Shown here: in pieces, positions 3,499 through 46,196 of the stretch | How the letters are laid out: each line of letters begins with the position of its first letter | Position numbering within the stretch: the stretch's first letter is position 1 | Source: a virus | IMG/VR virus record: IMGVR_UViG_3300027833_000012 | Span: 1-48,256 of that record | Reading direction: 5' to 3' (one strand) | DNA: 48,256 nt | Notes under the pieces: generated by a model | The model's input: the letters and a program-made list of their open reading frames with translations, nothing else | Told to the model about the DNA's origin: nothing | Database searches by the model: none | Position numbers and translations under genes: made by a program

Positions 3499-3530
3499 CA
3501 AATATACATCTTTTATTTCAATTTTACAAA
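3499..3530 (-). promoter_or_regulatory. Bacteroidetes-type promoter for NAMPT
   Basis: Minus strand: TTTG, 20-bp spacer, TATATTTG, about 20 bases before the NAMPT start. Matches the Bacteroidetes primary-sigma form TTTG / TA-N2-TTTG. Confidence 0.75.
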
Positions 3531-18250: not shown

Positions 18251-18259
18251 TTGTTATAG

Positions 18260-18330: not shown

Positions 18331-18409
18331 ATTGGTCTTTATGTAGGTGGTACCACCTTGTAGAGCCATAAAGAAACTTAACCTACTTTATCATATTGAA
18401 TTAATAAAA

Positions 18410-18661
18410 TTATTTATTTCTAAATTCTAACTCTTTTTTAATTTTTTCATATACTTCACAAGATTTTCTGTATTCCTGGATAAAAAAACCTCTTTCACAC
18501 CCTTTTAAAGGTAAATGTAACATACTACTATCAGAGAAGTTAATATCCTTTAACTTCTCTGATTTTATTTTTTTTAATTGTGTTTTATTAAATGTTGAAA
18601 TATCATTTAACTCAAAAGCTTCTAATAAATCATCTAAACTCATTTTACTGTAATTATTCAT
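18410..18661 (-). CDS. Hypothetical protein inside the tRNA array
   Basis: 83 aa, helical, charged, not recognised (MNNYSKMSLDDLLEAFELND start). It interrupts the tRNA array and has its own promoter at 18680-18711, so it is probably expressed separately. Confidence 0.6.
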   Translation of the reverse strand: MNNYSKMSLDDLLEAFELNDISTFNKTQLKKIKSEKLKDINFSDSSMLHLPLKGCERGFFIQEYRKSCEVYEKIKKELEFRNK

Positions 18662-18679
18662 ATCTTTATGTTTTAATTA

Positions 18680-18711
18680 CAAATATACAAATTAATTATC
18701 ATAATTACAAA
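18680..18711 (-). promoter_or_regulatory. Promoter inside the tRNA array
   Basis: Minus strand: TTTG, 20-bp spacer, TATATTTG; drives the 83-aa gene and the last two tRNA-like genes. Confidence 0.7.
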
Positions 18712-18717
18712 TTATTG

Positions 18718-18786
18718 AGCGAGAAATGGGACTCGAACCCACAACCTTCTGATTGGCCAGACGCTCTACCATTGAGCTATTCTCGC
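18718..18786 (-). tRNA. tRNA-like gene with shortened anticodon loop
   Basis: Good acceptor (GCGAGAA/TTCTCGC), D stem GCTC/GAGC and T loop TTCGAGT, but the anticodon arm is TCTG-GCCAAT-CAGA: a 6-nt loop with no U33. Compared with the near-twin at 18973-19044 (TCTGG-TTACCAA-TCAGA) three bases, TTA, are missing. Unlikely to read codons normally. Confidence 0.65.
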
Positions 18787-18835
18787 AATTTATAGTCTTT
18801 CCTATTGTCACCATTTGAAGGAGTGGGTTTCTCCT

Positions 18836-18912
18836 TGGAGCACACAGACGGGTTCGAACCGACAACCTCCGCATTACAAGTGCGGGACTACTTCCACATG
18901 AGCTTTGTGTGC
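18836..18912 (-). tRNA. tRNA-Thr(UGU)
   Basis: Acceptor GCACACA/TGTGTGC, anticodon stem CCGCA/TGCGG with loop CTTGTAA (UGU), T loop TTCGAAC. The gene encodes its CCA end (TCCA follows the acceptor), one of few here that does. Confidence 0.85.
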
Positions 18913-18972
18913 ATTTGTATGTCTTTACCTCAGTAACATACGTGAAAGATTTAATACTTCTTAACTACTCTG

Positions 18973-19044
18973 AGCGAGAAAGGAATTTCGAAATCCCGAC
19001 CTTCTGATTGGTAACCAGACGCTCTGCCTCTGAGCTATTCTCGC
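18973..19044 (-). tRNA. tRNA with ACC anticodon loop (Gly by position)
   Basis: Acceptor GCGAGAA/TTCTCGC, D stem GCTC/GAGC, anticodon stem TCTGG/TCAGA with loop TTACCAA. By position the anticodon is ACC, rare in bacteria for Gly. The T arm is palindromic (TTTCGAAA) with one mismatch. Near-identical body to 18718-18786. Confidence 0.65.
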
Positions 19045-19094
19045 ATTTCTAATTCTACGCTCGTCCAAAGGAGTCTATGAATTAGTAACAGTCT

Positions 19095-19730
19095 TCACTC
19101 CTTTTTCATTTTTCGACCCAATCTCCAGCCTTCTGGAATTAAATCGCCTTTATTTATTTTCTTACTTTCAACTTCATTGGTAATCCAACACTTACCGAAT
19201 TGAGAATTATTTGACCCAACATTTTTAGACTTCCTCATCTTCTTTTTAGTTTCCTCACTATGTAATTTACCTTTAAATGTTGCTAATCTACCTTTTAAAG
19301 CTTTTTTAACTTTTTCTTTATATTTTGGGTCTTTATGCAAATTTTTAGTTATTTCACTTTTAATTTTCCTACCTTCATCACTTTTCCAAAATATATTACC
19401 AGCTTCAGAACATTTTTTCTGATGTTCTTCATCCCTAAAACCACCTTGACCACCTACTCTTAGATTCATACAGTCAACCTTTGCAATCTCGTTAAGATTA
19501 ACTATTTCTTCTTCTCTAGATTTTAAAATTTCTCTAGTTTCACAATACTCAAGTATTTCACTAATGAAATTATCTTTTCCATGTTTTCTAATAGCTAATT
19601 TAATTCTATTTCCACTACCTAAATAACCATCATCTAAGTTATCTGTACTATGCATCCCTATATAATATTTACCACTTAATACGTTTGTGGTTTTATATAT
19701 GAAGTGATACTTTTTTTCTTTTCTTGCCAT
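19095..19730 (-). CDS. GIY-YIG homing endonuclease with NUMOD3 motifs (Seg type)
   Basis: 211 aa. FIYKTTNVLSGKYYIGMH is the GIY-YIG core in its I-Y-K/Y-I-G form, followed by GYLGSG, a conserved Arg region and IVNLNEI. The C-terminal half has NUMOD3-type DNA-binding repeats (HSEETKKKMRKSK and similar) and a tail GDLIPEGWRLGR typical of Seg endonucleases. It sits inside the tRNA array between tRNA genes, as Seg genes often do, and probably spreads itself among related phages. It does not interrupt a gene. Confidence 0.92.
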   Translation of the reverse strand: MARKEKKYHFIYKTTNVLSGKYYIGMHSTDNLDDGYLGSGNRIKLAIRKHGKDNFISEILEYCETREILKSREEEIVNLNEIAKVDCMNLRVGGQGGFRDEEHQKKCSEAGNIFWKSDEGRKIKSEITKNLHKDPKYKEKVKKALKGRLATFKGKLHSEETKKKMRKSKNVGSNNSQFGKCWITNEVESKKINKGDLIPEGWRLGRKMKKE

Positions 19731-19789
19731 ATCTATCTTTTACAATAAATATGCAGAAAAACGTTAAAAGTACAAAAACGTGTCTAAAG

Positions 19790-19871
19790 TGGGCCCAGAG
19801 GGATTCGAACCCCCAATGTCTTTCGACCACAGATTTACAATCTGCTGAGCGACCAGTTGCTCAATGAACCC
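19790..19871 (-). tRNA. tRNA-Tyr(GUA)
   Basis: Class II. Acceptor GGGTTCA/TGGGCCC, anticodon stem GCAGA/TCTGT with loop TTGTAAA (GUA), variable arm stem GTC-GAAA-GAC, T loop TTCGAAT, A73. Confidence 0.88.
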
Positions 19872-19882
19872 ATTTAATATTG

Positions 19883-19954
19883 AGCTGATATCCAAAATCG
19901 AATTGGAATTTCTACCATACCAAGGTAGCGTAATAGCCGTTATACTATACCAGC
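19883..19954 (-). tRNA. tRNA-Thr(GGU)
   Basis: Acceptor GCTGGTA/TATCAGC, anticodon stem CTACC/GGTAG with loop TTGGTAT (GGU). T loop TTCGATT. Confidence 0.82.
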
Positions 19955-19959
19955 ATTTG

Positions 19960-20030
19960 TACCCCCTAACGGTATTGAACCGATTTCCCCTATTTAAAAG
20001 ATAGGTGCTTCACCTTAAAGCTTAGAAGGC
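19960..20030 (-). tRNA. tRNA-Lys(UUU)
   Basis: Acceptor GCCTTCT/AGGGGGT (two wobbles), D stem GCTT/AAGC, anticodon stem CCTAT/ATAGG with loop CTTTTAA (UUU), T loop TTCAATA, A73. Confidence 0.82.
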
Positions 20031-20036
20031 GTATTG

Positions 20037-20124
20037 TCCGAGAGGTGGGACTCGAACCCACGGTGGAGTCATTAACTCGTCTGGTTAAAAGCCAGGACCG
20101 TTCGCCAACTACGGATACTCTCGG
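20037..20124 (-). tRNA. Class II tRNA with UUU anticodon loop
   Basis: 87 nt, acceptor CCGAGAG/CTCTCGG, A73, and a variable arm with stem GAGT/GACTC, the body plan of Leu/Ser/Tyr tRNAs. Yet the anticodon loop is CTTTTAA (stem CTGG/CCAG), which by position reads Lys codons. Body and anticodon disagree; identity cannot be assigned. Confidence 0.75.
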
Positions 20125-20130
20125 ATATTG

Positions 20131-20212
20131 TGGGTCCAGAGGGATTCGAACCCCCAACGCCTTTCGGCCACAAATTTACAGTCTGCTGAGCGACCAGTTG
20201 CTCAATGAACCC
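20131..20212 (-). tRNA. tRNA-Tyr(GUA), second copy
   Basis: Class II. Same acceptor and D arm as 19790-19871, loop CTGTAAA (GUA), variable arm GGCC-GAAA-GGC; several changes elsewhere, so an old duplicate. Confidence 0.87.
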
Positions 20213-20233
20213 ATTTATTTCACAAATTATTTG

Positions 20234-20304
20234 TCGATAGACCAGGAGTTAAACCTGGACCTACACCCCCAATGGATGTCGCACTGTCATTATACTATCT
20301 ATCG
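20234..20304 (-). tRNA. tRNA, anticodon unclear (UUG or UGG)
   Basis: Acceptor CGATAGA/TCTATCG, T arm CCAGG-TTTAACT-CCTGG, A73. Anticodon stem ACATC/GGTGT with loop CATTGGG: UUG by position but without U33, or UGG if the loop slips by one. The D loop lacks the usual GG. Confidence 0.6.
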
Positions 20305-20309
20305 AATTG

Positions 20310-20380
20310 TTACCCTCACGAGATTCGAACTCATACAACAAAAGTCAAAGTTTTGTATGCTACCATTACATCAGAGGGCA
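20310..20380 (-). tRNA. tRNA-Gln(UUG)
   Basis: Acceptor TGCCCTC/GAGGGTA, D stem ATGT/GCAT, anticodon stem CAAAA/TTTTG with loop CTTTGAC (UUG), T loop TTCGAAT; U1 as in bacterial tRNA-Gln. Confidence 0.87.
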
Positions 20381-20387
20381 AAATAGA

Positions 20388-20486
20388 GTAGAAAGGGGGA
20401 TTCGAACCCGTAGTTATATTGAGTACTCTTTAACTACACCCACTTGGAACCTCGATGTTCCCGTGCTATCATTACACTATTTCTAC
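20388..20486 (-). tRNA. Class II tRNA, CGA by position (Ser?)
   Basis: 99 nt. Acceptor GTAGAAA/TTTCTAC, D stem GTGT/GCAC, long variable arm (stem GTAGTTA/TAACTAC around GAGTACTC). The anticodon stem GGAAC/GTTCC closes a 6-nt loop ATCGAG; U33-CGA reads Ser UCG, with position 38 missing. Confidence 0.65.
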
Positions 20487-20491
20487 ATTTG

Positions 20492-20561
20492 TCTAATGGG
20501 ACAGATTCGAACTGTCGTACTTCAGATACCAAATCTGACATGACCCTGGCTTCGCCACTAG
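20492..20561 (-). tRNA. tRNA-Pro(UGG)-like
   Basis: Acceptor CTAGTGG/CCATTAG, anticodon stem TCAGA/TCTGA with loop TTTGGTA (UGG, but U37 where Pro tRNAs have G37), T arm GACAG-TTCGAAT-CTGTC. The D arm is poorly formed. Confidence 0.7.
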
Positions 20562-20620
20562 ATAATTTTAATTCTACGCTTAAACTTCAAGATTCCTATG
20601 AATTAATAACAGTCTACTAG

Positions 20621-20695
20621 TCGAATAGAGAGGACTCGAACCTCCATGATGTCCTAGTCCCAAACTAGGCGACTTACCAATTAGTCCACTACTCG
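20621..20695 (-). tRNA. tRNA-Pro(UGG)
   Basis: Acceptor CGAGTAG/CTATTCG, D stem GACT/AGTC, anticodon stem CCTAG/CTAGG with loop TTTGGGA (UGG with G37), T arm GGAGG/CCTCT. Confidence 0.87.
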
Positions 20696-20704
20696 AATTA
20701 TTTG

Positions 20705-20800
20705 TCGGGGGTATGGGATTCGAACCCATGGCAAATACGAACAGCGTACCCGCACTGGTTTCCAAGACCAGCCACTTCAACCTTACTCGTGCAACCCCCG
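20705..20800 (-). tRNA. Class II tRNA with UGG anticodon loop
   Basis: 95 nt. Acceptor CGGGGGT/ACCCCCG, A73, long variable region. Anticodon stem CTGGT/ACCAG with loop CTTGGAA: UGG (Pro) by position, though the body is Leu/Ser-like; GGA (Ser) would need a one-base slip. Confidence 0.72.
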
Positions 20801-20888
20801 ATAATTACACTTCCACGTCATTGGTATAGTGCGAACCCAATTGTTATTTTATTATTCCAATATGTCAATGAACTACTTATTATTAAAC

Positions 20889-20926
20889 GCAAAAAACCCA
20901 GTTAAAATTTTTATCTTAACTGGGCT
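20889..20926 (-). terminator. Rho-independent terminator
   Basis: Minus strand: CCCAGTTAA...TTAACTGGG stem with an A/T-rich loop, followed by six T. Ends the mini-transcript carrying the 35-aa gene. Confidence 0.85.
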
Positions 20927-20958
20927 TCTTTATCGTATTTTTTTTTGGTTTAAATGAA

Positions 20959-21066
20959 TTAACCAATTAATTCATCACTTCCTTTTTTATACAACTCACC
21001 CAGTCTGCTCGGCTTTTGGCCTTGCGGATACTGTTTCCCTTGATATGTCGTTGTATAATTTTTCAT
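20959..21066 (-). CDS. Small protein (35 aa) in its own transcript
   Basis: ATG at 21066, TAA at 20959; MKNYTTTYQGKQYPQGQKPS start, ending KKGSDELIG. It has a strong promoter (21112-21143) about 50 bases upstream and a strong terminator downstream. Its middle third is much richer in G+C than other genes here (CCGCAAGGCCAAAAGCCGAG), so the RNA itself may also be structured. No family recognised. Confidence 0.55.
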   Translation of the reverse strand: MKNYTTTYQGKQYPQGQKPSRLGELYKKGSDELIG

Positions 21067-21111
21067 CTTAATTTTTCTTTATGGGTTTATACCCTTTGTT
21101 AATATATATGA

Positions 21112-21143
21112 CAAAGATACTAAAAGTTATCTAATTTGTCAAG
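21112..21143 (-). promoter_or_regulatory. Strong promoter of the 35-aa mini-transcript
   Basis: Minus strand: TTGAC, 20 bases from TTG to the box, TATCTTTG. About 45 bp around it are nearly identical to the promoter at 35699-35730. Confidence 0.78.
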
Positions 21144-21206
21144 TTTTTTTTAATTTATTTTTTAATTTATTTATAATTCACTGACTATCAGTTTATTATA
21201 TCTTTG

Positions 21207-21280
21207 TAGCGAGAGTCGGATTCGAACCGACGACCTCCAGATTATGAGCCTGGCGAGCTGACCTACTGCTCTATCTCGCA
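21207..21280 (-). tRNA. tRNA-Met(CAU), U1-U72 mismatch
   Basis: TGCGAGA/TCTCGCT acceptor with six pairs and an unpaired U1-U72, D stem GAGC/GCTC, anticodon stem CCAGG/TCTGG with loop CTCATAA (CAU), T loop TTCGAAT, A73. The anticodon stem lacks the three G-C pairs of initiator tRNA. Could also be Ile2 read with lysidine. Confidence 0.85.
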
Positions 21281-21286
21281 ATTTAG

Positions 21287-21359
21287 TAGCGGGGGTAGGA
21301 TTCGAACCTACGACCTCCAGATTATGAGCCTGGCGAGCTAACCACTGCTCTACCCCGCA
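21287..21359 (-). tRNA. tRNA-Met(CAU), second copy
   Basis: TGCGGGG/CCCCGCT acceptor, again with unpaired U1-U72; same anticodon arm (CTCATAA) as the neighbour 7 bases away. Tandem duplicates that differ in the acceptor stem. Confidence 0.85.
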
Positions 21360-31561: not shown

Positions 31562-31583
31562 TAAATGTTAATCTTATTTCTAG

Positions 31584-31655
31584 CCGTCCATCTCAGAATC
31601 GAACTGAGAGCAACCGAGAGACAGTCGGTCATGTTAGCCATTACACCAATGGACG
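31584..31655 (-). tRNA. tRNA-Asp(GUC)
   Basis: Acceptor CGTCCAT/ATGGACG, anticodon stem ACCGA/TCGGT with loop CTGTCTC (GUC), T loop TTCGATT, G73 as expected for Asp. Confidence 0.88.
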
Positions 31656-31661
31656 GAATAG

Positions 31662-31731
31662 GAATATTGTAGGATTCGAACCTACGACTGCGGCTCTTTG
31701 GCCACCGTGCTAACCTCTACACTAAATATTC
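31662..31731 (-). tRNA. tRNA-like gene with 6-nt anticodon loop
   Basis: Acceptor GAATATT/AATATTC, D stem GTGT/GCAC and T arm GTAGG-TTCGAAT-CCTAC are perfect. The anticodon arm is GTGGC-CAAAGA-GCCGC: a 6-nt loop with no U33 and no readable anticodon. Confidence 0.65.
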
Positions 31732-31829
31732 TAACTATCTACAAATGACTGCCATCATCCTTCAATAGAACAGCCTTGATACTTCATTTCAGTTGGCAGA
31801 CTTACTCAAATTTATCTCACTGTTTTTGT
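31732..31829. other. tRNA spacer, no gene seen
   Basis: About 98 bases between tRNA genes with no ORF or clear hairpin. Confidence 0.5.
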
Positions 31830-31901
31830 GGAGCTACTCGGAATCGAACCGAGGACTGGGATTTGCAAAACCCCTATTTTAGCCAATTAAACTATAACCC
31901 C
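31829..31901 (-). tRNA. tRNA-Ala(UGC)
   Basis: Acceptor GGGGTTA/TAGCTCC with the Ala identity pair G3-U70, anticodon stem GGGGT/ATCCC with loop TTTGCAA (UGC), T loop TTCGATT, A73. Confidence 0.9.
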
Positions 31902-32043
31902 ATTTTTGTTAGATTTCGTACCGTTATCACACTTCAGTACAAGTCGCTATCAATTTATCTAACACACTTCCAATGCTACCTATCTAGGTTATTTAAACAC
32001 CTTTGCGTCCCTAGCGGTATTGTGTGACACCGTTTCTTTATTG

Positions 32044-32116
32044 TATTCCAGAAGGGAATCGAACCCTCATTTTGCGATAGAAAGTCGCACGTCCTAAGCC
32101 ATTAGACGACTGGAAC
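32044..32116 (-). tRNA. tRNA-Glu(UUC)
   Basis: Acceptor GTTCCAG/CTGGAAT, anticodon stem TGCGA/TCGCA with loop CTTTCTA (UUC), T loop TTCGATT. Confidence 0.88.
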
Positions 32117-32209
32117 ATTTGTAATTCTTCCTTTACTTATATTAACACTCCGATTGAACTTAATCTATCCCAGGCGTTACTTCCTGGCTCGTCTGGTATT
32201 AATATCTAG

Positions 32210-32283
32210 CGGATGTCACGGGGGTCGAACCCGCAATCTTCTGAGTGACAGTCAGATATGTTACCAATCAACACCTCACATCC
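32210..32283 (-). tRNA. tRNA-Asp(GUC), second copy
   Basis: Acceptor GGATGTG/GACATCC (one mismatch at 7-66), anticodon stem TCTGA/TCAGA with loop CTGTCAC (GUC), T loop TTCGACC, G73. Confidence 0.83.
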
Positions 32284-32354
32284 GTTTTATAGTCTTTCCT
32301 AACAGTCATACTCAATACATTGGCTGGTTGTAAATCAGCTATACAATGCGTTTG

Positions 32355-32428
32355 TAACCCTAGTGGGAGTCGAACCCACGACCTTATCCTTGAAAGGGAT
32401 ACGACTTTTCCTATTCGTCCATAGGGTC
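32355..32428 (-). tRNA. tRNA-Glu(UUC), second copy
   Basis: Acceptor GACCCTA/TAGGGTT, anticodon stem TATCC/GGATA with loop CTTTCAA (UUC), T loop TTCGACT. Confidence 0.86.
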
Positions 32429-32553
32429 ATATAATAATAGGTGGAAAGAGTTTTATTTTGCTCTTATTACATGCACGACTTTGTGCAAAACTCACAAATA
32501 CCGATGAATTTAATCATTATCACTTAAAGCGTTTCGATATCTATTATTTATTG

Positions 32554-32629
32554 CCGTCCTAGAGGGGTTCGAACCCTCGTTTTTGAGCAGAGACAGTGCA
32601 AATCCCCTTCCAATGGGGCTCATAAGACG
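32554..32629 (-). tRNA. tRNA-Asp(GUC)-like, weak anticodon arm
   Basis: Acceptor CGTCTTA/TAGGACG, T arm GAGGG-TTCGAAC-CCCTC, G73. The D arm has an unusual CCCC/GGGG stem and the anticodon stem only three pairs (GCA/TGC) around CTGTCTC. Confidence 0.6.
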
Positions 32630-32633
32630 TTAG

Positions 32634-32706
32634 TGAGGGCAACTGGTATCGAACCAGTATCTTTCGGGCTTCAACCGAACGCATAGACCATCTTTGCTAT
32701 ACCCCC
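32634..32706 (-). tRNA. tRNA-Phe(GAA)
   Basis: Acceptor GGGGGTA/TGCCCTC, anticodon stem TTCGG/CCGAA with loop TTGAAGC (GAA), T arm ACTGG-TTCGATA-CCAGT, A73. First tRNA after the array promoter. Confidence 0.88.
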
Positions 32707-32719
32707 TTGTTTGTTATGT

Positions 32720-32751
32720 CAAAGATACAAAAAATAAATTTAACTACCAAA
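32720..32751 (-). promoter_or_regulatory. Promoter of the second tRNA array
   Basis: Minus strand: TTTG, 20-bp spacer, TATCTTTG, 14 bases before the first tRNA. Confidence 0.78.
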
Positions 32752-32763
32752 CTTTTTTTTTAA

Positions 32764-33081
32764 TTAATAACCATTTTCTTTTTTCCATTGGTCATGCATA
32801 AAAACCACTTTACCATATGCTGAACCTTTACCTTCAGTAATGTTTATGAAACCATTTTCTTCAGTTATTACTGATTCTTCTGGTCTAACTGAACCTCTAT
32901 ACTTCTTCCCATAACTACCAGTTAGTTCTTTTGTGGCTGGGTCAATATCACCCCAAGTACTATGACCATTACCTATCCATTCTATATAGTATTTCTTTCC
33001 AGTTTCTGGGAAATACATTATTTCTCTTCCAGTTTCATCTCTATTAACTAAGAAATCTTTAATCACATTTTTCATAACCAT
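32764..33081 (-). CDS. Hypothetical protein
   Basis: 105 aa (MVMKNVIKDFL start; the second Met at 33075 is an equal candidate). Beta-rich with many Gly and aromatic residues (YYIEWIGNGHSTWGDID). Not recognised. Follows the terminator at 33091. Confidence 0.6.
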   Translation of the reverse strand: MVMKNVIKDFLVNRDETGREIMYFPETGKKYYIEWIGNGHSTWGDIDPATKELTGSYGKKYRGSVRPEESVITEENGFINITEGKGSAYGKVVFMHDQWKKENGY

Positions 33082-33090
33082 TTAAATTTA

Positions 33091-33125
33091 AAGCAAAAAA
33101 AAACTCGAATCTTTCGAATCGAGCT
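33091..33125 (-). terminator. Rho-independent terminator
   Basis: Minus strand: CTCGATTC-GAAA-GATTCGAG (one mismatch) followed by nine T. Confidence 0.8.
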
Positions 33126-33149
33126 TGTTATTTAGTTTAGTTGTTACAC

Positions 33150-33242
33150 TTAACTTTTGACACTACTCGACCTCCCCAGGCTAAAATCAGCCTCGGCATT
33201 TGCTTCAAACGCAAAATCAAATATGTAGTTAAATGTATTCAT
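33150..33242 (-). CDS. Possible 30-aa protein in its own transcript
   Basis: ATG at 33242, TAA at 33150; MNTFNYIFDFAFEANAEADF start. Set between a promoter (33303-33334) and a terminator. The middle contains a hairpin AGGCT-GATTTT-AGCCT and is G-rich, so the unit may act as an RNA instead of, or besides, coding. Confidence 0.45.
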   Translation of the reverse strand: MNTFNYIFDFAFEANAEADFSLGRSSSVKS

Positions 33243-33302
33243 CTTTTTTATTTTTATAATTTTAATCAGAAGTATCTTTTACCTCTTTATTTTAAATATA
33301 CA

Positions 33303-33334
33303 CAAATATACTAAAAGTTTATTTATTGTGCAAG
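33303..33334 (-). promoter_or_regulatory. Promoter of the 30-aa mini-transcript
   Basis: Minus strand: CTTG, 20-bp spacer, TATATTTG. Confidence 0.75.
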
Positions 33335-33339
33335 TTTTT

Positions 33340-33546
33340 TTATTTATTTATTTCTGCAACGTCAGAAATTTTAACTTTAAATCTAATTCTTTCACCAGAA
33401 TCAGTCTTTTCCATAATTAATATTGTTGGTGATAAATCAACTGTGTCAAAAGTTTTGAACGTATTTAAAATAGTAAAATCACTATCTTTTAATGTCTCAC
33501 TTAATTTCTCAAATATTTCACTATAAATTTTATTATTATCCATCAT
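33340..33546 (-). CDS. Hypothetical protein
   Basis: 68 aa, helix then beta strands (FTILNTFKTFDTVDLSPTILI), not recognised. Own promoter at 33562-33593. Confidence 0.62.
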   Translation of the reverse strand: MMDNNKIYSEIFEKLSETLKDSDFTILNTFKTFDTVDLSPTILIMEKTDSGERIRFKVKISDVAEINK

Positions 33547-33561
33547 TATTTCATTACACTA

Positions 33562-33593
33562 CAAATATACTAACAATTATTCTTAATGTCAAG
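33562..33593 (-). promoter_or_regulatory. Promoter of the 68-aa gene
   Basis: Minus strand: CTTGAC, 20 bases from TTG to the box, TATATTTG. Confidence 0.75.
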
Positions 33594-33609
33594 TATATTT
33601 GTATTTATT

Positions 33610-34215
33610 TTAATTATTTATATAAAATATCTTGAAATACTTCTTAATATCCAAGTATAGTTCAGAATCATTCTTTAATTCTATCTCATCTCCATTATCG
33701 AAGAATGTATCCCATTCTTCAATAGATTTATTTTTACAACCTATATTTAAAGTTCCATTTTCTTTTTTTTCAAATGACCAGTAGGCTATTTTTAAATCTC
33801 CATTTTGAACGAAACCTTTTAGAGATGTAATCAAATTGTTTCTTAAAGCTAAAGTTCCATTTTGCACGAAACCTTTTAAAGATGTGATTCGATTGTTTGC
33901 TAAATTTAGGGTACCATTCTGCACGAAACCATCTAAGGATGTGATTTGGTTTTTACTTAAAGATAAAAAACCATTTTGCACAAAGCCATTTAAGGATGTG
34001 ATTTGATTACCACTTAAAAATAAATATCCATTTTGTACGAATCCATCTAAGGATGTGATTTGGTTGTTTCTTAAATCTAAAATACCATTTTGTACGAACC
34101 CATCTAAGGATGTGATATTTTTATTATCTAAATCTAAAATACCATTTTGATGCATCTTTCCATCAACCATCTTAAATGGTAAATCATTCTCTCTAATATA
34201 GTCACAAATATTCAT
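33610..34215 (-). CDS. Leucine-rich-repeat protein, 6 repeats
   Basis: 201 aa, third paralogue of the family at 13590 and 14550: same N-cap, same C-cap and six 19-residue repeats. It is exactly 57 residues shorter than the nine-repeat copy. About 18 kb from its relatives, with a copied promoter (34245-34276), so it moved as a unit. Confidence 0.88.
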   Translation of the reverse strand: MNICDYIRENDLPFKMVDGKMHQNGILDLDNKNITSLDGFVQNGILDLRNNQITSLDGFVQNGYLFLSGNQITSLNGFVQNGFLSLSKNQITSLDGFVQNGTLNLANNRITSLKGFVQNGTLALRNNLITSLKGFVQNGDLKIAYWSFEKKENGTLNIGCKNKSIEEWDTFFDNGDEIELKNDSELYLDIKKYFKIFYINN

Positions 34216-34244
34216 AATATATTTATTTTAATTATTGTTGATTA

Positions 34245-34276
34245 CAAATATACGAATAATATTTCAAACTACCAAA
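34245..34276 (-). promoter_or_regulatory. Promoter of the third LRR gene
   Basis: Minus strand: TTTG, 20-bp spacer, TATATTTG; sequence matches the promoter at 15359-15390. Confidence 0.75.
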
Positions 34277-34444
34277 CTATTCTGAAATTAATTCTAATAA
34301 CATAGATAATGGAAATAATATTACATTAATTAAAAATATTATAATTAACTTAAATTTATTTATATTATTTTTATAATATAATTTAATTATTGTATCACCC
34401 CATAATATACCTATTATTACATATATTACTATATATTCTAACAT
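34277..34444 (-). CDS. Small two-helix membrane protein (55 aa)
   Basis: ATG at 34444, TAG at 34277; starts MLEYIVIYVIIGILWGD, a hydrophobic helix, a basic-Asn turn (YYKNNINKFK) and a second helix. Very A/T-rich. Own promoter at 34476-34507. Confidence 0.55.
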   Translation of the reverse strand: MLEYIVIYVIIGILWGDTIIKLYYKNNINKFKLIIIFLINVILFPLSMLLELISE

Positions 34445-34475
34445 TATTATATATTATTTTTATATTTCGTTAAGA

Positions 34476-34507
34476 CAAAATTACTGATATTATTTTTAAT
34501 ATGCAAC
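34476..34507 (-). promoter_or_regulatory. Promoter of the 55-aa membrane gene
   Basis: Minus strand: TTG, 20-bp spacer, TAATTTTG (fits TA-N2-TTTG). Confidence 0.6.
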
Positions 34508-34540
34508 ATTTTTTATAATTTATCATAAATATACATATAT

Positions 34541-34572
34541 AAAAAAAGATACCCGTAATGAATATCTTTTAA
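34541..34572 (-). terminator. Terminator of the third tRNA array
   Basis: Minus strand: AAAGATA...TATCTTT stem with a loop containing TTCATTACGGG, then a T tract; just after tRNA-Leu(UAG). Confidence 0.78.
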
Positions 34573-34579
34573 ACTTAGT

Positions 34580-34658
34580 TGGTACCCCTGGTGGGAATCG
34601 AACCCACGAAACAATGGTTTCTAAGACCATTCTGCATTCCAACGTGCAGCACAAGGGC
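34580..34658 (-). tRNA. tRNA-Leu(UAG) with short variable loop
   Basis: Acceptor GCCCTTG/CAGGGGT, D stem CTGC/GCAG, anticodon stem ATGGT/ACCAT with loop CTTAGAA (UAG), T arm GTGGG/CCCAC, A73 and an encoded CCA. Only six bases (TGTTTC) form the variable region, whereas bacterial tRNA-Leu is class II. Confidence 0.88.
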
Positions 34659-34805
34659 TTATTTTATTCTTATTGTAATATAATAAACTTTATCAACAAA
34701 ATCATGTTCCCATCTAACTATGTTAACCCTTTTTTCCCATTCCTTGGTCCTAAATTTAGATTCTGACCAATTCTCTTCTTTTACAGTAAATACATGTGTT
34801 TTCAT
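34659..34805 (-). CDS. Small basic protein (48 aa) inside a tRNA array
   Basis: ATG at 34805, TAA at 34659, ending exactly where the next tRNA begins. Starts MKTHVFTVKEENWSESKF; charged, Trp-containing, ends YYITIRIK. Not recognised. Confidence 0.55.
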   Translation of the reverse strand: MKTHVFTVKEENWSESKFRTKEWEKRVNIVRWEHDFVDKVYYITIRIK

Positions 34806-34825
34806 TTCAAATTATTATATATTAG

Positions 34826-34901
34826 TACCCGAAGTGGGAATCGAACCCACGAAACGACAGAGTTTAAGTCTGTTGTGCATTCCAACGTGCACCATTCGGG
34901 C
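34826..34901 (-). tRNA. tRNA-Leu(UAA), copy 1
   Basis: Acceptor GCCCGAA/TTCGGGT, D stem GTGC/GCAC, anticodon stem ACAGA/TCTGT with loop CTTAAAC (UAA), short variable region CGTTTC, A73. Identical to 35067-35142. Confidence 0.88.
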
Positions 34902-34906
34902 AATTG

Positions 34907-34977
34907 TAGCTTCAGATGGAATCGAACCATCGCCCCTTGCATGTAAAACAAGTACGCTCCCATTACGCCATGAAGCC
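34907..34977 (-). tRNA. tRNA-Val(UAC)
   Basis: Acceptor GGCTTCA/TGAAGCT, anticodon stem CTTGT/GCAAG with loop TTTACAT (UAC), T arm GATGG/CCATC. Confidence 0.86.
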
Positions 34978-34983
34978 AATTAG

Positions 34984-35057
34984 TACCCCTACCTGGAATC
35001 GAACCAGGGACTTATTGCTTGTAAAACAATCGCTCTGAACCACTGAGCTATAGAGGT
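34984..35057 (-). tRNA. tRNA-Val(UAC), second copy
   Basis: Acceptor ACCTCTA/TAGGGGT, D stem GCTC/GAGC, anticodon stem ATTGT/GCAAT with loop TTTACAA (UAC), T arm CCTGG/CCAGG. Confidence 0.87.
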
Positions 35058-35066
35058 TTATATTAG

Positions 35067-35142
35067 TACCCGAAGTGGGAATCGAACCCACGAAACGACA
35101 GAGTTTAAGTCTGTTGTGCATTCCAACGTGCACCATTCGGGC
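35067..35142 (-). tRNA. tRNA-Leu(UAA), copy 2
   Basis: Exact copy of 34826-34901, including the few flanking bases, which marks a recent duplication of about 80 bp. Confidence 0.88.
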
Positions 35143-35148
35143 AATTAA

Positions 35149-35409
35149 TTAAATGGTTTCCCACCTAATCATATCATCTGAGTTATCACCATCAAGAGCT
35201 TTTATCGCCTTTCTAATGTATCTCATAAAGATAGATGCTTTATCTTCTAATTCAAAGGTAGCATTACCTACTTCATTGTTATCTGTAACGTCAATAGGGA
35301 AGGTGTAAAGCGTCTTATCTACTAATACGGTATAATATAACCTACCATTCTTACAATAAGCTAATTTAGCTTTATTTCCCTTTACAATTTCAATCATTTT
35401 ATGTTTCAT
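35149..35409 (-). CDS. Hypothetical protein
   Basis: 86 aa, beta-rich N-terminal half (AKLAYCKNGRLYYTVLVD), helical C-terminal half. Not recognised. Lies inside the third tRNA array. Confidence 0.62.
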   Translation of the reverse strand: MKHKMIEIVKGNKAKLAYCKNGRLYYTVLVDKTLYTFPIDVTDNNEVGNATFELEDKASIFMRYIRKAIKALDGDNSDDMIRWETI

Positions 35410-35428
35410 AACTTATAATTTATATTAG

Positions 35429-35501
35429 AGTCCCTAATCAGATTCGAACTGATACCTTACGGGTTGCAACCGCACGCCTTTGCCATTTTGACTATAGGGA
35501 C
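35429..35501 (-). tRNA. tRNA-Cys(GCA)
   Basis: Acceptor GTCCCTA/TAGGGAC, anticodon stem TGCGG/CCGTA with loop TTGCAAC (GCA), T arm ATCAG/CTGAT and U73, the Cys identity base. Confidence 0.88.
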
Positions 35502-41161: not shown

Positions 41162-42451
41162 TTAATTCTGTATTTCGATTAAGTATGCAATTGTACACTG
41201 CTTACCGTTATATATTATAAATTCATCATTTCTTAAATCAACACCACCATGTGCATATACACTATCATAACCTTCATTATCCATAACCTTTTTAGATAAC
41301 TTATAACAAGAACTATCATGAGTCTTAATGTGTTTTTGGTTACCAACATGTACATCAAATAAAGCTAAATAACCCTTATTCGAACCACCATTAGTCCAAT
41401 AAGAACCCCTAAGTGAACTATAACCTATCGATTTTTGAGCCTTATTAGCAAAATAAATACCATCACCAAACATACTACCAGTATGTATAGCACCAGAAGG
41501 TCTAATCATAAGTCCAGTTTGTATGATATTAAACCAATTTTCATTCCTGGAACCATGCCAGTAAAGTCTATTCTTTTTAACTCTAGCTTTATTAAAGTTT
41601 TCATCAAAATCAGCTTGAGTTCTTTCATTGATACACTTAAATATTTTCTTAGCTTGTTTTTTATTCTTACCTAATAACTTATATATTAATTTAAGTCTTT
41701 CTTCATCTTCCTCCACAGAAACTTTAAGACCCATTTGTTCAAGTAGTGTTATTTCATCACCCTTATCTTCACCAATCTTGGTGTTAACACTATCTCTTTG
41801 TTGTTTAAGTAATCTTACTTGACCAGCCATAGTATCAAGAGTATCTTGTTCATTAGATAAAAAATCATTTACCTTATCAAGATTATTTTTAACATCAGAA
41901 GTGTTAATTAAATAATCTCTAACATCTTTCATTTCTCTTGGTATTATACTGTATAAGCTAATTAATAATTCATTAAGTTTATTAACATCCATACCTATCT
42001 TAACTGATTTAACAGCATCATTAAGTATGTCTTGAGCCGAATCAATTTGTTTTTGTGTTACGGTATCTTGTGTAACCTTATAATTCTTCTGTATTGCTTT
42101 ATTTGCAAAACTCATTAATTCATCAAAAAGGTTTCTAACCTTAACACAACTAATATCAGCAGTTTTACTTTTATTAGTACCTGTATTATCAGTAATCTTT
42201 TCAGATACCATGTCGGTAACATCTTTATAACCCTTACTATTACTAGTCTTATTCTTATAAATTTTATTCCACTCGTATGATTGTTTATAAACAGTAGTTA
42301 ATCTCTTACCAACTCTACCATATTCACACTTTATCTTACCATCACTTTGTTCTTCCATGATGTAAACCTTATTAGATTGACCCGTCTTACCGTTATCAAC
42401 CGAAACGTGAATAAGCTTTGCAAATTTTAAACCGTTTTCTTTAACTATCAT
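41162..42451 (-). CDS. Poly(ADP-ribose) polymerase (PARP) with WGR domain
   Basis: 429 aa in the order WGR (residues about 10-90, with CEYGRVGKR in the place of the W-G-R core), helical regulatory domain (about 120-280) and PARP catalytic domain (about 285-429). The catalytic H-Y-E triad is intact: H299 in LYWHGSRNENW, Y333 in GDGIYFANK, E410 in NDEFIIYN. The intact Glu fits chain-forming PARPs rather than mono-ADP-ribosylators. It uses NAD+ and releases nicotinamide, the NAMPT substrate made by this phage. WGR domains sense DNA or RNA ends. Own promoter at 42475-42506. Confidence 0.93.
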   Translation of the reverse strand: MIVKENGLKFAKLIHVSVDNGKTGQSNKVYIMEEQSDGKIKCEYGRVGKRLTTVYKQSYEWNKIYKNKTSNSKGYKDVTDMVSEKITDNTGTNKSKTADISCVKVRNLFDELMSFANKAIQKNYKVTQDTVTQKQIDSAQDILNDAVKSVKIGMDVNKLNELLISLYSIIPREMKDVRDYLINTSDVKNNLDKVNDFLSNEQDTLDTMAGQVRLLKQQRDSVNTKIGEDKGDEITLLEQMGLKVSVEEDEERLKLIYKLLGKNKKQAKKIFKCINERTQADFDENFNKARVKKNRLYWHGSRNENWFNIIQTGLMIRPSGAIHTGSMFGDGIYFANKAQKSIGYSSLRGSYWTNGGSNKGYLALFDVHVGNQKHIKTHDSSCYKLSKKVMDNEGYDSVYAHGGVDLRNDEFIIYNGKQCTIAYLIEIQN

Positions 42452-42474: not shown

Positions 42475-42506
42475 CAAATATAAGGATAATAATTTAATAA
42501 AACAAA
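42475..42506 (-). promoter_or_regulatory. Promoter of the PARP unit
   Basis: Minus strand: TTTG, 20-bp spacer, TATATTTG; lies within a long hairpin. Confidence 0.65.
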
Positions 42507-42516
42507 TTATTATCCT
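42482..42516 (-). terminator. Long A/T-rich hairpin at gene end
   Basis: AAGGATAATAATTT pairs with AAATTATTATCCTT (14 bp, 7-base loop) right after the 2H phosphoesterase stop. No T tract follows on the minus strand, so it may be a weak terminator or RNA end stabiliser, and it encloses the PARP promoter. Confidence 0.5.
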
Positions 42517-43019
42517 TATATAAACCCCTTAACTATTAAATCATGTAAATAAATTGAATGTGGGGCCCACTTTTCATTTGCATATCCAAGACTCATATGT
42601 AACCCCCAGTGTGGTCTATCAAGACCTAATTCGGTTCTTATCCCATGTAATTCAAGTCTATGTTCTTGTGGTATCGTAAACCACCAATGTAATGTACTAC
42701 CAGGTTTAGATGAATCGGTCTTTGGTTGTAAGTCTAATATCACATCAATTTTAGTGTTATGATATTTCTCTTTAATTTCTAACCATTTACCATTTGATTC
42801 AGATTTTCTATCATTTATAAATGTGATATGTGGACCTCTTAATGGTCTATTAAGTTTTAGGTTATACCTCTTCTTTAAAAACCAATTGTAATAGTCAATC
42901 ATATCGTCATTAAATACAACCATAGCAATACATTTCCATGAACCTTGTTTATCATGTTTTTTAGTCATATTCTTAGGGTCAAATTTAATAACCCCACTAA
43001 CTTTAACAGTTGTCTTCAT
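42516..43019 (-). CDS. 2H phosphoesterase, second type
   Basis: 167 aa with two H-x-[ST] motifs: GPHITFIND (about residues 63-71) and GLHMSLGYAN (about 140-149). Not closely similar to the copy at 8808. Candidates are cyclic phosphodiesterase, RNA end-processing or Acb1-like anti-CBASS activity. It stands immediately upstream of the PARP gene, where a role in ADP-ribose cyclic phosphate breakdown is conceivable. Confidence 0.75.
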   Translation of the reverse strand: MKTTVKVSGVIKFDPKNMTKKHDKQGSWKCIAMVVFNDDMIDYYNWFLKKRYNLKLNRPLRGPHITFINDRKSESNGKWLEIKEKYHNTKIDVILDLQPKTDSSKPGSTLHWWFTIPQEHRLELHGIRTELGLDRPHWGLHMSLGYANEKWAPHSIYLHDLIVKGFI

Positions 43020-43025: not shown

Positions 43026-44027
43026 TTATTTTAAATTATACTTATTCAAAACATCTTCCCATTCTTCATTAGATATAAAATCTAGTATTTTAATGTTTAA
43101 TTCCCTTAATGAACCCTTACCTATAATTCCAAATGTTTGACTTTCGAAATTATCCTCAGATAAATTAATCCCACTAAACATATCTTTACCTATTAAGTAT
43201 TGTAATACTGGTGTATCATAGACAAAGGCATCTAAATCACCTTCATTCATAGCTATAAACGCTTCTTCAGGGTTATTATATGAAATATACTTAATATCGT
43301 TTGATTCTAAAAACTTAGAAACATGACTACCACTTATGGTAGCAACTTTACACTTATTTAAATCACCAAGCGTTATTGGTTCTTTTTCAGTTGCATTATC
43401 AATTTGTAGTATCATATAACCAGTTAATATCATTGATACCCACATAAGTGTTAAAGACATAAATTTACCAATCCTAGTCTTAGCAACAACATATCCTTCA
43501 CCAACTGTTGTCATTGTTGCTGAAACCCATATTAATGAATTCATATAACCCTTAACGTTTTTCTCAATCGCATCATTCTTCGTCGCTTCAATAAAGAAAA
43601 ATAGTCCACCAAGTAAAATTACAGTAATCGCTAACTTACCAATTGGTACTAATAAAGACATAAACCTAAAGTTAGATTTAGCATCATCTGTATAAGCTAT
43701 ACTAGTACTTGTAGCATAAAATGGTTGTGAAAAATTAACCTTAGATAATCTATCTTTAGTTATTGTTGTAGGTGCGAAAAAATAGTCAAAATCAACGCTA
43801 TCCTTAGCTATTCTATCAATGATATTATCATAACTTCCAGTAACCTCTACTAATTTATATGGTACATCAATACCCTTAACTAAATCAACACACAAACCAC
43901 TGTAATGACCATTATCATACTTCATGGTAAATGGTGGGTCCAATTTTACACCAACCTTAATCGTATCTTTTTCAATGTTTTGTGAAAAAGAAATCATACT
44001 AATTAAAAAAAATACTATACTTCTCAT
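43026..44027 (-). CDS. Ionotropic glutamate receptor-like ion channel (GluR0 type)
   Basis: 333 aa. Signal peptide (MRSIVFFLISMISFSQ), first half of a type-3 solute-binding domain (about 22-118: VGVKLDPPFT, FAPTTITKDRL), membrane helix (126-146), a pore loop with TMTTVGEGY (TVGEG at 174-178, the place of the K+ filter TVGYG), second membrane helix (187-208), then the rest of the binding domain (about 215-333, ATISGSHVSKFLE). This S1-TM-P-TM-S2 order is that of prokaryotic glutamate-receptor channels. It should open on binding an amino acid outside the inner membrane. The E in the filter would change selectivity. Confidence 0.9.
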   Translation of the reverse strand: MRSIVFFLISMISFSQNIEKDTIKVGVKLDPPFTMKYDNGHYSGLCVDLVKGIDVPYKLVEVTGSYDNIIDRIAKDSVDFDYFFAPTTITKDRLSKVNFSQPFYATSTSIAYTDDAKSNFRFMSLLVPIGKLAITVILLGGLFFFIEATKNDAIEKNVKGYMNSLIWVSATMTTVGEGYVVAKTRIGKFMSLTLMWVSMILTGYMILQIDNATEKEPITLGDLNKCKVATISGSHVSKFLESNDIKYISYNNPEEAFIAMNEGDLDAFVYDTPVLQYLIGKDMFSGINLSEDNFESQTFGIIGKGSLRELNIKILDFISNEEWEDVLNKYNLK

Positions 44028-44049: not shown

Positions 44050-44080
44050 CAAATATACATAAAAAAAAGGTGATTACAAA
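44050..44080 (-). promoter_or_regulatory. Promoter of the receptor-like channel
   Basis: Minus strand: TTTTG, 19-bp spacer, TATATTTG; shares its left part with the terminator of the upstream unit. Confidence 0.65.
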
Positions 44081-44101
44081 ATATAATCACCTTTTTTTTT
44101 T
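44061..44101. terminator. Bidirectional-looking terminator
   Basis: Stem GGTGATTA/TAATCACC with T tracts of eight or more on both strands. Confidence 0.8.
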
Positions 44102-44105: not shown

Positions 44106-44642
44106 TTAATCATAACTACCACCAGAATCGTATGAACTAGAATCTGAGCTAGATGAGCTAGATGATGAACCGTAATCTGAACTAGATGAGCTAGATGATG
44201 AACCGTAATCCGAACTAGATGAACTGTAACTAGATGAACTGTAACTAGGTGATTCATAACTAGGTGATTCGTAACTAGGTGTACTATAATCTAAGTTAGT
44301 TGTTTCACTGACATTTTCATCAACATCTTCACTGAGATTTTCATCAACATCTTCATCTATAAAAAAATCATCAAATAAAAAATCAATAAGAATCAAATCA
44401 AGTATTAACTCACCAGTTTCATCATAATAATCCCAGTCATTCTTAGAAGTACCATCAGTACCTAATTTACACTTACCTGTGTAAGTTTTACCATTGTGAC
44501 TTCTAACCACCCTAAGATTAGGAGTCACTTGTTTTTTATAGGTTTTTTTAGTAACCTCTTCATTAGTCTTTTTATTTGTCATCTTATAGATACCAAACAT
44601 TAATAATACTACAACTAAACTTAATAATCCAATAATTTCCAT
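44106..44642 (-). CDS. Membrane-anchored Ser-rich protein
   Basis: 178 aa. One membrane helix at the N-terminus (about 4-21), a middle segment with GKTYTGKCKLGTDG, an acidic stretch, and a tail of Ser/Tyr repeats (SSSSSDYGSS) of about 55 residues. Not recognised. Such tails are flexible and may be phosphorylated or coat-like. It belongs to the run that includes PspA. Confidence 0.65.
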   Translation of the reverse strand: MEIIGLLSLVVVLLMFGIYKMTNKKTNEEVTKKTYKKQVTPNLRVVRSHNGKTYTGKCKLGTDGTSKNDWDYYDETGELILDLILIDFLFDDFFIDEDVDENLSEDVDENVSETTNLDYSTPSYESPSYESPSYSSSSYSSSSSDYGSSSSSSSSDYGSSSSSSSSDSSSYDSGGSYD

Positions 44643-44661: not shown

Positions 44662-45498
44662 TTAATAATAATGCACTTCCCATATAGGTGAGCAAAAATA
44701 AGGGTCATAATAAGAATCATAATATTCTATTTCAAATATCGGTTCTTCTACATATTCAACCTCGTATGTTATATATTCTTCATCATACTCTTCTTCATCC
44801 TCGTCATCTTCAAGATTTAATTCTAATTCATCTTGTTCTTCTTGAATTTTTAATAAATTATTCATGACTTTACTACCAGCCTCAACAATTAATTTCATGA
44901 CTTCTTCACCAGTATGGTTATCTTCAGCTAAATCATCTAAATAAATATTATTATTTACAATATCCATTATTTCAAACCAAATTGAACCTGTGGCTAAATC
45001 AGCTTCCCAAGTATCATCTTCCTCACAATTAAACTTGTTACCGTCAACAAATTCTAAAAATACTATTTCTACTGGGTTTATACCCTTTAATTCGCAAAGT
45101 GCTATTCTTAAATCTACAAAAGACTCATCATTTAATATCTCATCAAAATCCTCATCAGTATCTACGTTGAAGTATTCTTCATAAGCGAATGTCCCAGAAC
45201 CAGTATCAACTGCACTATATATTCGATAAACACGCCTAAATTCTTCTAATTTGGTTAGGTAATTAGTTAATAACTCACGACCTTTATTAGTTGGAACATA
45301 TTTATTACTTGTAATTGTAACATAACCCTTAGAATGCATATGAATAAGAAATGGTTCCAGGAATGTCTTATTACCCTCTAAAATTATTGGGTAAATATGG
45401 TTAAAATTAATTAGGTTTTCAAGAAGAAGTACCGAACAAAAGTACTTCTTCATGTCATCCGTTAATTTATACTTAGCTTCTTTAATTGTATCAGCCAT
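44662..45498 (-). CDS. Acidic hypothetical protein of the PspA unit
   Basis: 278 aa. The N-terminal third resembles a winged helix (HMHSKGYVTITSNKYVPTNKGREL); the C-terminal third is extremely acidic and Tyr-rich (DDEDEEEYDEEYITYEVEYV). It shares one base with the PspA stop, so translation is coupled. Possibly a PspA regulator by position only. Confidence 0.62.
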   Translation of the reverse strand: MADTIKEAKYKLTDDMKKYFCSVLLLENLINFNHIYPIILEGNKTFLEPFLIHMHSKGYVTITSNKYVPTNKGRELLTNYLTKLEEFRRVYRIYSAVDTGSGTFAYEEYFNVDTDEDFDEILNDESFVDLRIALCELKGINPVEIVFLEFVDGNKFNCEEDDTWEADLATGSIWFEIMDIVNNNIYLDDLAEDNHTGEEVMKLIVEAGSKVMNNLLKIQEEQDELELNLEDDEDEEEYDEEYITYEVEYVEEPIFEIEYYDSYYDPYFCSPIWEVHYY

Positions 45499-46196
45499 TA
45501 TTTACCTTCGTTTATAAAGTCAGAGAATAGTTTATCATCGTCAGTTGTTGATGATTCAGATAATAATTTATTAATCCTATCCTCATCTGACATTGTTGAA
45601 TCTTCTAGAGATTGCCAAGCACTAGCTTCAGCGTTATTACTATTAATTTTCTTACTAAGTTCTTCTAATTCTGAATTAACTCCATCCAAATTTAAGGATG
45701 ATAATTCTTTAGTGATTTCTTTATTAGCTTTAGATGCTATCATTTCACCCTTACTAGTTTGAACTTTCTCTTCAGTACTTTTTATAGTATCCTTTAACTT
45801 AATTATCTTACTTTGTAAGTCTTGTACGATTAAAGATTGTTTTTTAGCAGCCTCATCTTTCTTATTAGCCTCATTTAATAGGTTTTCATGTTTATTTAAC
45901 ATGGTAGTGATATCAATCTTAGCTGTACTCTTACCAATAACCCCAGTATCCATCATTTTCTTTAACTTTACAGCTTTATCTCTAAATGATTGTGCTTGTG
46001 ATTTTAATTTAGCAGCTTCAGACTCTAACCCAATCTGAACAGCCTTTATTCTAGCCAAACCTTCCATTGATTTTGAAAGCATTTCTTTTAAATCAACAAC
46101 CTTTTGATTTAACAATTCAATAGGGTCTTCAATTTTATCAAGCATTGCATTAGCCTTACTTTTCCCTATTCCAAAAATTCTCTTTAATAATCCCAT
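45498..46196 (-). CDS. PspA/IM30-family membrane-stress protein
   Basis: 232 aa. Starts MGLLKRIFGIGKSKANAMLD, an amphipathic membrane-binding helix, then the long coiled-coil hairpin of PspA/Vipp1 (DPIELLNQKVVDLKEML, QSFRDKAVKLKKMM). These ESCRT-III-like proteins form rods that shield and reshape damaged membranes. In a phage it could preserve membrane potential during infection. Neighbours are a membrane-anchored protein, the receptor-like channel and a lipoprotein. Confidence 0.87.
   Translation of the reverse strand: MGLLKRIFGIGKSKANAMLDKIEDPIELLNQKVVDLKEMLSKSMEGLARIKAVQIGLESEAAKLKSQAQSFRDKAVKLKKMMDTGVIGKSTAKIDITTMLNKHENLLNEANKKDEAAKKQSLIVQDLQSKIIKLKDTIKSTEEKVQTSKGEMIASKANKEITKELSSLNLDGVNSELEELSKKINSNNAEASAWQSLEDSTMSDEDRINKLLSESSTTDDDKLFSDFINEGK

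Follow-up and report, generated by a model that had tools for sequence, protein, structure and literature searches.

A predicted GluR0-type channel subunit with an altered selectivity filter in a contractile-tailed phage

Introduction

Can a tailed phage encode a ligand-gated ion channel of the glutamate receptor family and, if so, which ions would it pass and to what end? These questions are raised by a gene at positions 43026–44027 (minus strand) of a 48,256-nt stretch of viral DNA, hereafter the window, which forms part of a 187,484-base IMG/VR record (IMGVR_UViG_3300027833_000012). An initial annotation, made from the sequence alone, described the product as a glutamate-receptor-like channel in a phage that might sense periplasmic amino acids and control membrane potential or lysis timing.

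The closest known systems are channels of the GluR0 type (Slr1257 of Synechocystis and Nostoc GluR0; Group 1 of Ger et al., PMC2950845), which share with the window protein a binding domain of the substrate-binding-protein (SBP) type split around M1-P-M2. The topology of GluR0 is inverted; the channel passes K+ and depends on its soluble domains (PMC13099474). Viruses are also known to carry pore-loop channels, among them Kcv and the channels of a vibriophage and other phage (PMC6163359); unlike the window protein, these lack a binding domain, cross the membrane with two or few helices and carry a G(Y/F)GD filter. For phages, that survey lists bare K+ channels only. The same source describes a putative glutamate receptor in the chloroviruses PBCV-1 and OSy-NE5 that is iGluR-like, the PBCV-1 protein having three predicted transmembrane segments and weak similarity, but these are viruses of eukaryotes. 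Our search of the open-access literature, with subscription journals mostly outside its reach, returned no report of a phage-encoded glutamate-receptor channel.

Results

Domain architecture and structure models

The open reading frame starts with ATG, lacks an internal stop and encodes 333 amino acids. Three Pfam families match its product, each above the curated cut-off, so the similarity is not due to chance: SBP_bac_3 (residues 23–330, 1.4e-12), Lig_chan-Glu_bd (residues 22–113, 9.4e-08) and Ion_trans_2 (residues 134–211, 3.5e-07). The SBP_bac_3 match runs around Ion_trans_2, splitting the SBP-type binding domain into halves S1 and S2. Pfam, structure matches and the model described below place S1 at residues 20–113 (43689–43970; all features here lie on the minus strand) and S2 at residues 214–333 (43029–43388). 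Between them are an M1 helix seen in the model and by hydropathy (residues 114–148; 43584–43688), a modeled pore helix (residues 158–174; 43506–43556), and an M2 helix seen in the model and the alignment (residues 185–213; 43389–43475). The selectivity filter, evident in both sequence and alignment, reads T-V-G-E-G (residues 174–178; 43494–43508) within the stretch T-T-V-G-E-G-Y, with Tyr replacing the usual Asp at its end. Both the GluR0-type domain order and the TVGEG filter proposed initially are thereby confirmed. The signal peptide proposed with them is plausible from the sequence of a hydrophobic N-terminus (residues 1–18; 43974–44027) and a modeled helix at residues 2–13, although this stretch falls below the 19-residue hydropathy threshold.

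When the single sequence was searched against solved structures, amino-acid-binding proteins, both ancestral and modern, were recovered together with the core of Nostoc GluR0 (8.2e-09). A profile built from 15 relatives matched the GluR0 cores far more strongly (2pyy at 2.4e-52, Slr1257 at 1.1e-46) and aligned whole eukaryotic iGluRs as one stretch. In PHROGs, the two halves of the protein match only families of unknown function, besides a weak match to a Kef-type pore.

A full-length AlphaFold2 model based on 15 aligned sequences (mean pLDDT 86.2, pTM 0.70) contains M1, the pore helix and M2 between two confident binding-domain halves, with no M4. A fold consisting of a binding protein without a pore, the outcome that the initial annotation had named as refuting, was therefore not obtained. 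The best Foldseek matches in the PDB are AMPA and NMDA receptor chains, including their membrane part (E about 1e-18, TM 0.5–0.6), at an rmsd of 8–12 because the domains are oriented differently. VIA-align ranked the glutamate-bound Nostoc GluR0 core first (2pyy; Z 26.0 over 206 residues, rmsd 2.0) and scored Synechocystis GluR0 (1ii5) at Z 24.7, where rows within about 1 Z count as tied and plain binding proteins make up many rows. In BFVD, the sole full-length match was E3T502 of Cafeteria roenbergensis virus (E 3.9e-21), which is iGluR-like but comes from a virus of a eukaryote. When the pore was modeled by itself, quality was low (pLDDT 72, pTM 0.49): NaK entries ranked first to fourth in Foldseek, none significantly (best E 0.42), and every VIA-align Z was below 8.

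Like the GluR0 types, the window protein lacks an N-terminal domain and M4, retains conserved Arg and Asp ligand anchors, and finds its best binding-core match among them; it differs in its filter (TVGEGY for TVGYGD), changed M2 end, shorter linkers and phage carrier. We conclude that the gene almost certainly encodes a GluR0-type subunit.

A phage gene with its own promoter

Elsewhere, the record carries genes for a tail sheath (2.8e-59), a tape measure (1.2e-19) and a baseplate hub (2.5e-12), and RNA and DNA ligase genes adjoin the window. The record is a contractile-tailed phage, and the initial description of the gene as residing in a phage was right. An assembly chimera or host contamination might be suspected, in that homologues of the channel are bacterial and models for Gp23 and Terminase_6N had no match anywhere in the record. 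We consider this exceedingly improbable: the best match to the protein anywhere lies in another phage record, and bacterial contamination is ruled out by the tail genes, by a GC content (29.1%, against 29.7% for the whole window) like that of neighboring genes, and by a strand-biased promoter of the same kind as its neighbors use.

The window has 22 copies of this promoter element, TATATTTG, on the coding strand and 4 on the other, against a Markov expectation of 4.2, and 17 of the 22 coding-strand copies have a TTG 19–20 nt upstream. Together these TTG-N19/20-TATATTTG sites form a set of 22 on the minus strand (e.g., at 3499, 25782, 42475 and 47528). The promoter form described for Bacteroidota is TTTG/TANNTTTG (PMC6847099, PMC9723704); in its general form, TANNTTTG shows no enrichment in the window (83 found, 81.3 expected). 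Given the Bacteroidota-type form of the window's promoters, the host of the phage is probably a Bacteroidota bacterium.

Upstream of the channel gene, a TATATTTG copy resembling the Bacteroidota −7 element (44050–44057, minus strand) lies 22 nt before the ATG, with TTG 19 nt further upstream. It is preceded by a terminator-like hairpin with a T run (44061–44099, minus strand, also readable on the plus strand), which sets the channel promoter apart from the upstream gene. Three hairpins of this kind were found, against 0.3 expected in shuffled sequence. A promoter of its own behind a strong terminator-like hairpin indicates that the channel gene starts its own transcript.

Relatives in phages and bacteria

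No full-length homologue was found among 50,697 GenBank phage records (E 0.01), and single-protein patterns identified no close relatives in viral or genome contig sets. Channel-like genes are nevertheless present in five other IMG/VR records, two of which are clearly phages. One is a 159-kb contig (G002) with Gp23, terminase and sheath genes, in which the channel (L013:7950-8996) sits among tRNA genes. Its product is 33% identical to the window protein over the full length and shares the C-terminal KYNL-, but has the filter TVGFGD and retains the gate region. Against GenBank phages, this protein likewise matched nothing but partial sequences, with either the SBP part or the pore, and none reached 80% coverage. 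The pattern TTVG(Y/F)GDK occurs in seven stretches of the viral contigs. In three loci (L074, L077 and L078) the channel family was matched over both binding halves, and in the incomplete L075 over the available part; Pfam confirmed the channels of L074 and L077. The second clear phage is the 264-kb record of L077, which has sheath and terminase genes; neither was found in the records of L074, L075 and L078.

Outside viruses, channel matches were found in 24 plasmid records and, at 1e-10, in 31 of 395 Bacteroidota genomes and 61 of 397 Flavobacteriaceae genomes. In phylogenetic trees, from which L019, with a frameshift or misreading, and L064, with an internal stop, were left out, as they were from all counts, the window protein and its G002 homologue form one group (99/92 in the first tree; 98/92 in the second, from which nine rows were dropped in all). 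This group stands beside a Flavobacteriaceae group in the second tree (94/86), and L074, L077 and L078 form a separate group (100/98). Two separate viral groups indicate at least two captures of the channel gene, a count that is provisional because of long branches and unusual composition. The branch of the window protein is very long (2.6–3.0 changes per column), and both phage rows were flagged for long branches and unlike composition, so that their joint clade may be partly an artifact.

The presence of host homologues allows a different reading, in which the phage protein is a poison or modifier subunit that joins host GluR0-type subunits and alters or blocks their channels. Consistent with such a role, possible hosts do carry homologues, and the phage protein keeps the fold while its filter, gate and linkers depart from those of its relatives. 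However, its identity to bacterial subunits is 25–35%, which makes co-assembly doubtful, 336 of the 397 Flavobacteriaceae genomes have no match at 1e-10, and the host itself is deduced from promoter form. We regard this reading as improbable.

A selectivity filter found in a single sequence

Among 86 aligned proteins, the filter TVGEGY occurs in the window protein alone. TVGYGD is found in 63, TVGFGD in the G002 homologue and non-K+ filters in the remaining 21. Ten of the 86, rhizobial GluR0-like proteins (among L002 and L021-L030), have the filter QASTGH or QASTGY. The window filter thus lacks both the TVGYG/TVGFG signature of Group 1 prokaryotic iGluRs and the G(Y/F)GD signature of Kcv and phage channels, reading GEGY in place of the latter. 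Its Glu codon, GAA, is two base changes away from both Tyr codons, so a single sequencing error does not explain the substitution. The motif MTTVGEG occurs in 11 viral stretches; in 10 of these it falls within an open reading frame of at least 40 residues, none of them channel-like, and in the other (L089) no such frame was found. TVGEG is therefore known in a channel from one sequence, and selection on the motif cannot be measured.

NaK-type channels characteristically have an acidic residue where TVGYG has Tyr, as does the window protein. NaK of Bacillus cereus has TVGDGN at this position of the pore; it has no ligand-binding domain, and its membrane orientation is opposite to that of GluR0-type channels. 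The window protein, unlike such bare two-helix channels, has a binding domain. Among its sequence matches is 2q6a, which we take to be the NaK D66E mutant. The TVGDGN filter of NaK is non-selective and becomes K+-selective once changed to TVGYGD (PMC9822992). Relative to the K+ form, the window filter is changed at two positions, with Glu in place of Tyr and Tyr in place of Asp, and it is at exactly these two that NaK and NaK2K differ. The initial suggestion that the filter Glu may favor other cations is thus a reasonable prediction by analogy with the nearest known filter, and by the same analogy we expect that the channel would probably be weakly cation-selective.

Alternatively, the Glu might be tolerated in an ordinary K+-selective channel of the GluR0 type. 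GluR0 itself conducts K+ (PMC13099474), the TTVG-G frame is intact, and all other K+-type relatives keep TVGYGD or TVGFGD. Against this stands the concerted change at exactly the two positions that distinguish NaK from NaK2K, and we consider retained K+ selectivity unlikely.

Ligand pocket, gate and linkers

Both residues assigned as anchors of an amino acid ligand (PMC2950845) are present. Arg93 (43749–43751, minus strand), which contacts the alpha-carboxylate, is conserved in all 86 relatives, and Asp271 (43215–43217, minus strand), which contacts the alpha-amino group, in 84; the position of Ser234 is Ser or Thr in 85. His235, at the side-chain pocket, is not among the six commonest residues there in the alignment, and the ligand may therefore be one other than glutamate.

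The end of M2, which in relatives forms the gate and reads, for example, TASIASSLT, is LQIDNATEKE in the window protein. The S1-M1 linker is about 10 residues shorter and the M2-S2 linker about 5 residues shorter than in relatives. With its M2 end replaced and linkers shortened, the protein may have altered gating or have lost it. In a chimera of GluA1 and a viral K+ channel, the receptor gate motif SYTANLAAF was not essential (PMC6385376), so a changed gate motif need not abolish gating.

These departures also bear on whether the gene is decaying or its product no longer conducts, in which case a receptor captured from a host would now serve as a mere amino-acid-binding membrane protein or have no function. 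The length of its branch, the loss of the gate motif, the shorter linkers, the unusual filter and the poor model of the isolated pore would all fit such a fate. On the other side, the reading frame is full length, both ligand anchors are kept, the gene has its own promoter and the binding domain is modeled with confidence. Decay therefore appears quite unlikely to us.

Neighboring genes and PspA

The channel gene is followed, 6 nt downstream, by a gene for a 2H phosphoesterase-like protein (42516–43019, minus strand; phrog_12204, 1.5e-16; Pfam 2H-SAK, 0.0066, below cut-off). A related 2H protein (2.7e-08) is encoded at L077:6519-6899, about 3.7 kb from the channel of that locus. The second gene after the channel (41162–42451, minus strand) encodes a 429-aa PARP-domain protein (PF00644, 3.7e-25; phrog_23333, 5e-56) and has its own TATATTTG site at 42475–42482. 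No holin or endolysin adjoins the channel among the neighbors scanned, so the proposed control of lysis timing finds no support in its surroundings. PADLOC gave no match for the channel and none that was convincing for eight neighbors, and we rejected an anti-phage or counter-defence role.

Upstream, 1.5 kb from the channel in the window, lies a gene for a membrane-stress protein of the PspA/IM30 family (45498–46196, minus strand; PF04012, 1.7e-21). It belongs to a group whose first gene (46208–47500, minus strand), preceded by a TATATTTG site of its own at 47528, encodes a lipoprotein-like, Ser/Arg/Lys-rich protein with a C-terminal S74 chaperone domain (PF13884, 1.1e-13); this endosialidase-type domain occurs here in a protein that is not a long tail fiber. 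Between PspA and the channel are genes for a 278-aa protein (44662–45498, minus strand), with a winged-helix match below cut-off (HTH_45, 0.00076), and, directly upstream of the terminator, for a 178-aa protein with one N-terminal hydrophobic helix, a Ser-rich acidic tail and no Pfam match (44106–44642, minus strand).

PspA genes are found beside the channel in four of the six viral records (the window's, G400, G401 and G403) and were not found in G002 or G402. The loci L074:2167-5178, L075 and L078:3002-5954 each contain a cassette of a CesT/Tir-like gene, a PspA-like gene and a GluR0-type channel with a TVGYGD filter. In L074 and L078, the CesT/Tir matches are strong (Pfam, 3.9e-15 and 1.8e-13), and the PspA matches fall below the Pfam cut-off (5.3e-06 and 1.3e-07). 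The PspA proteins of these two loci are 48% identical, and G400, G401 and G403 share one homologous cassette; these three records are therefore not independent. Among 20 Bacteroidota loci drawn from 31 positive genomes and searched with phmmer and three seeds, none had PspA within about 8 kb of the channel. We thus reject PspA as a general channel partner in bacteria; its link to the channel is viral and in part reflects one inherited cassette.

These arrangements suggest a membrane-protection module, in which the channel would sense a periplasmic amino acid or envelope damage while PspA seals or stabilizes the membrane during adjustment of its potential. The proximity of PspA in the window and in the shared cassette favors such a module, as do CesT/Tir-PspA operons of bacteria in which a potassium channel is also encoded (PMC11237479). 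In that account, however, the channel senses an intracellular ligand, and no CesT/Tir domain was found by Pfam among the window neighbors. The cassette counts once, PspA is missing from the 20 bacterial loci, and in the window the terminator hairpin stands between the promoter of the channel and the PspA group. A dedicated module is possible, if doubtful.

Other features of the window

A nicotinamide phosphoribosyltransferase-like gene (phrog_448, 3e-43) stands beside a cytidylyltransferase/NUDIX gene (1824–3476 and 4072–5037); by sequence, the two are likely a phage NAD-salvage pair. NAD salvage by phages has been linked to NAD-based defence. The window also contains 28 clustered tRNA calls (18259–21359 and 31583–35501), with many near-duplicate pairs (Lys, Gln, Pro, Met, Val) and some unusual anticodon loops, and a gene for a protein with an ABC-transporter ATPase domain (24164–24997; 2.9e-27) beside one for a phrog_6743 protein.

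Discussion

The window protein is of an established kind; what is new is its filter and the phage that carries it. By analogy with GluR0, the subunit would be exported and form a tetramer in the inner membrane of the host. The binding clefts would lie in the periplasm, and inversion of the pore would turn the Glu-ring end of the filter toward the cytoplasm. An alpha-amino acid bound through Arg93 and Asp271 would close the cleft and pull the pore open. With TVGEGY in place of TVGYGD, little selectivity is expected, and the pore, like that of NaK, would pass K+, Na+ and perhaps divalent cations. Opening of so unselective a pore would depolarize the host membrane. Taken as a whole, we lean toward this account of a ligand-gated, weakly selective, membrane-depolarizing channel that might serve in handling potential or stress.

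What the phage would gain is a matter for greater caution. The most likely use, which we infer from the nearby PspA gene, would be to keep membrane potential and envelope stress under control while infection proceeds; as a specific role, depolarization and stress handling during infection is a tentative proposal that could well prove wrong. Bolder still, and rather doubtful at present, is the combined view that tailed phages of Bacteroidota have ligand-gated glutamate-receptor channels of their own, through which amino acids in the periplasm would act on the membrane potential of the host during infection, and that in the phage described here the filter has turned from K+-selective to non-selective, so that ligand binding would depolarize the cell with phage PspA protecting the membrane. 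If this were true, the filter shift would be a natural reverse counterpart of the NaK-to-NaK2K change.

The iGluR family is known from animals, plants and bacteria, with iGluR-like genes in viruses of algae and of a marine flagellate. If the window protein conducts, phages would gain electrical sensing of extracellular amino acids, and studies of selectivity in the glutamate-receptor lineage could draw on a naturally occurring GluR0 whose filter resembles that of NaK. The role of membrane potential in phage infection would then become testable with one small protein.
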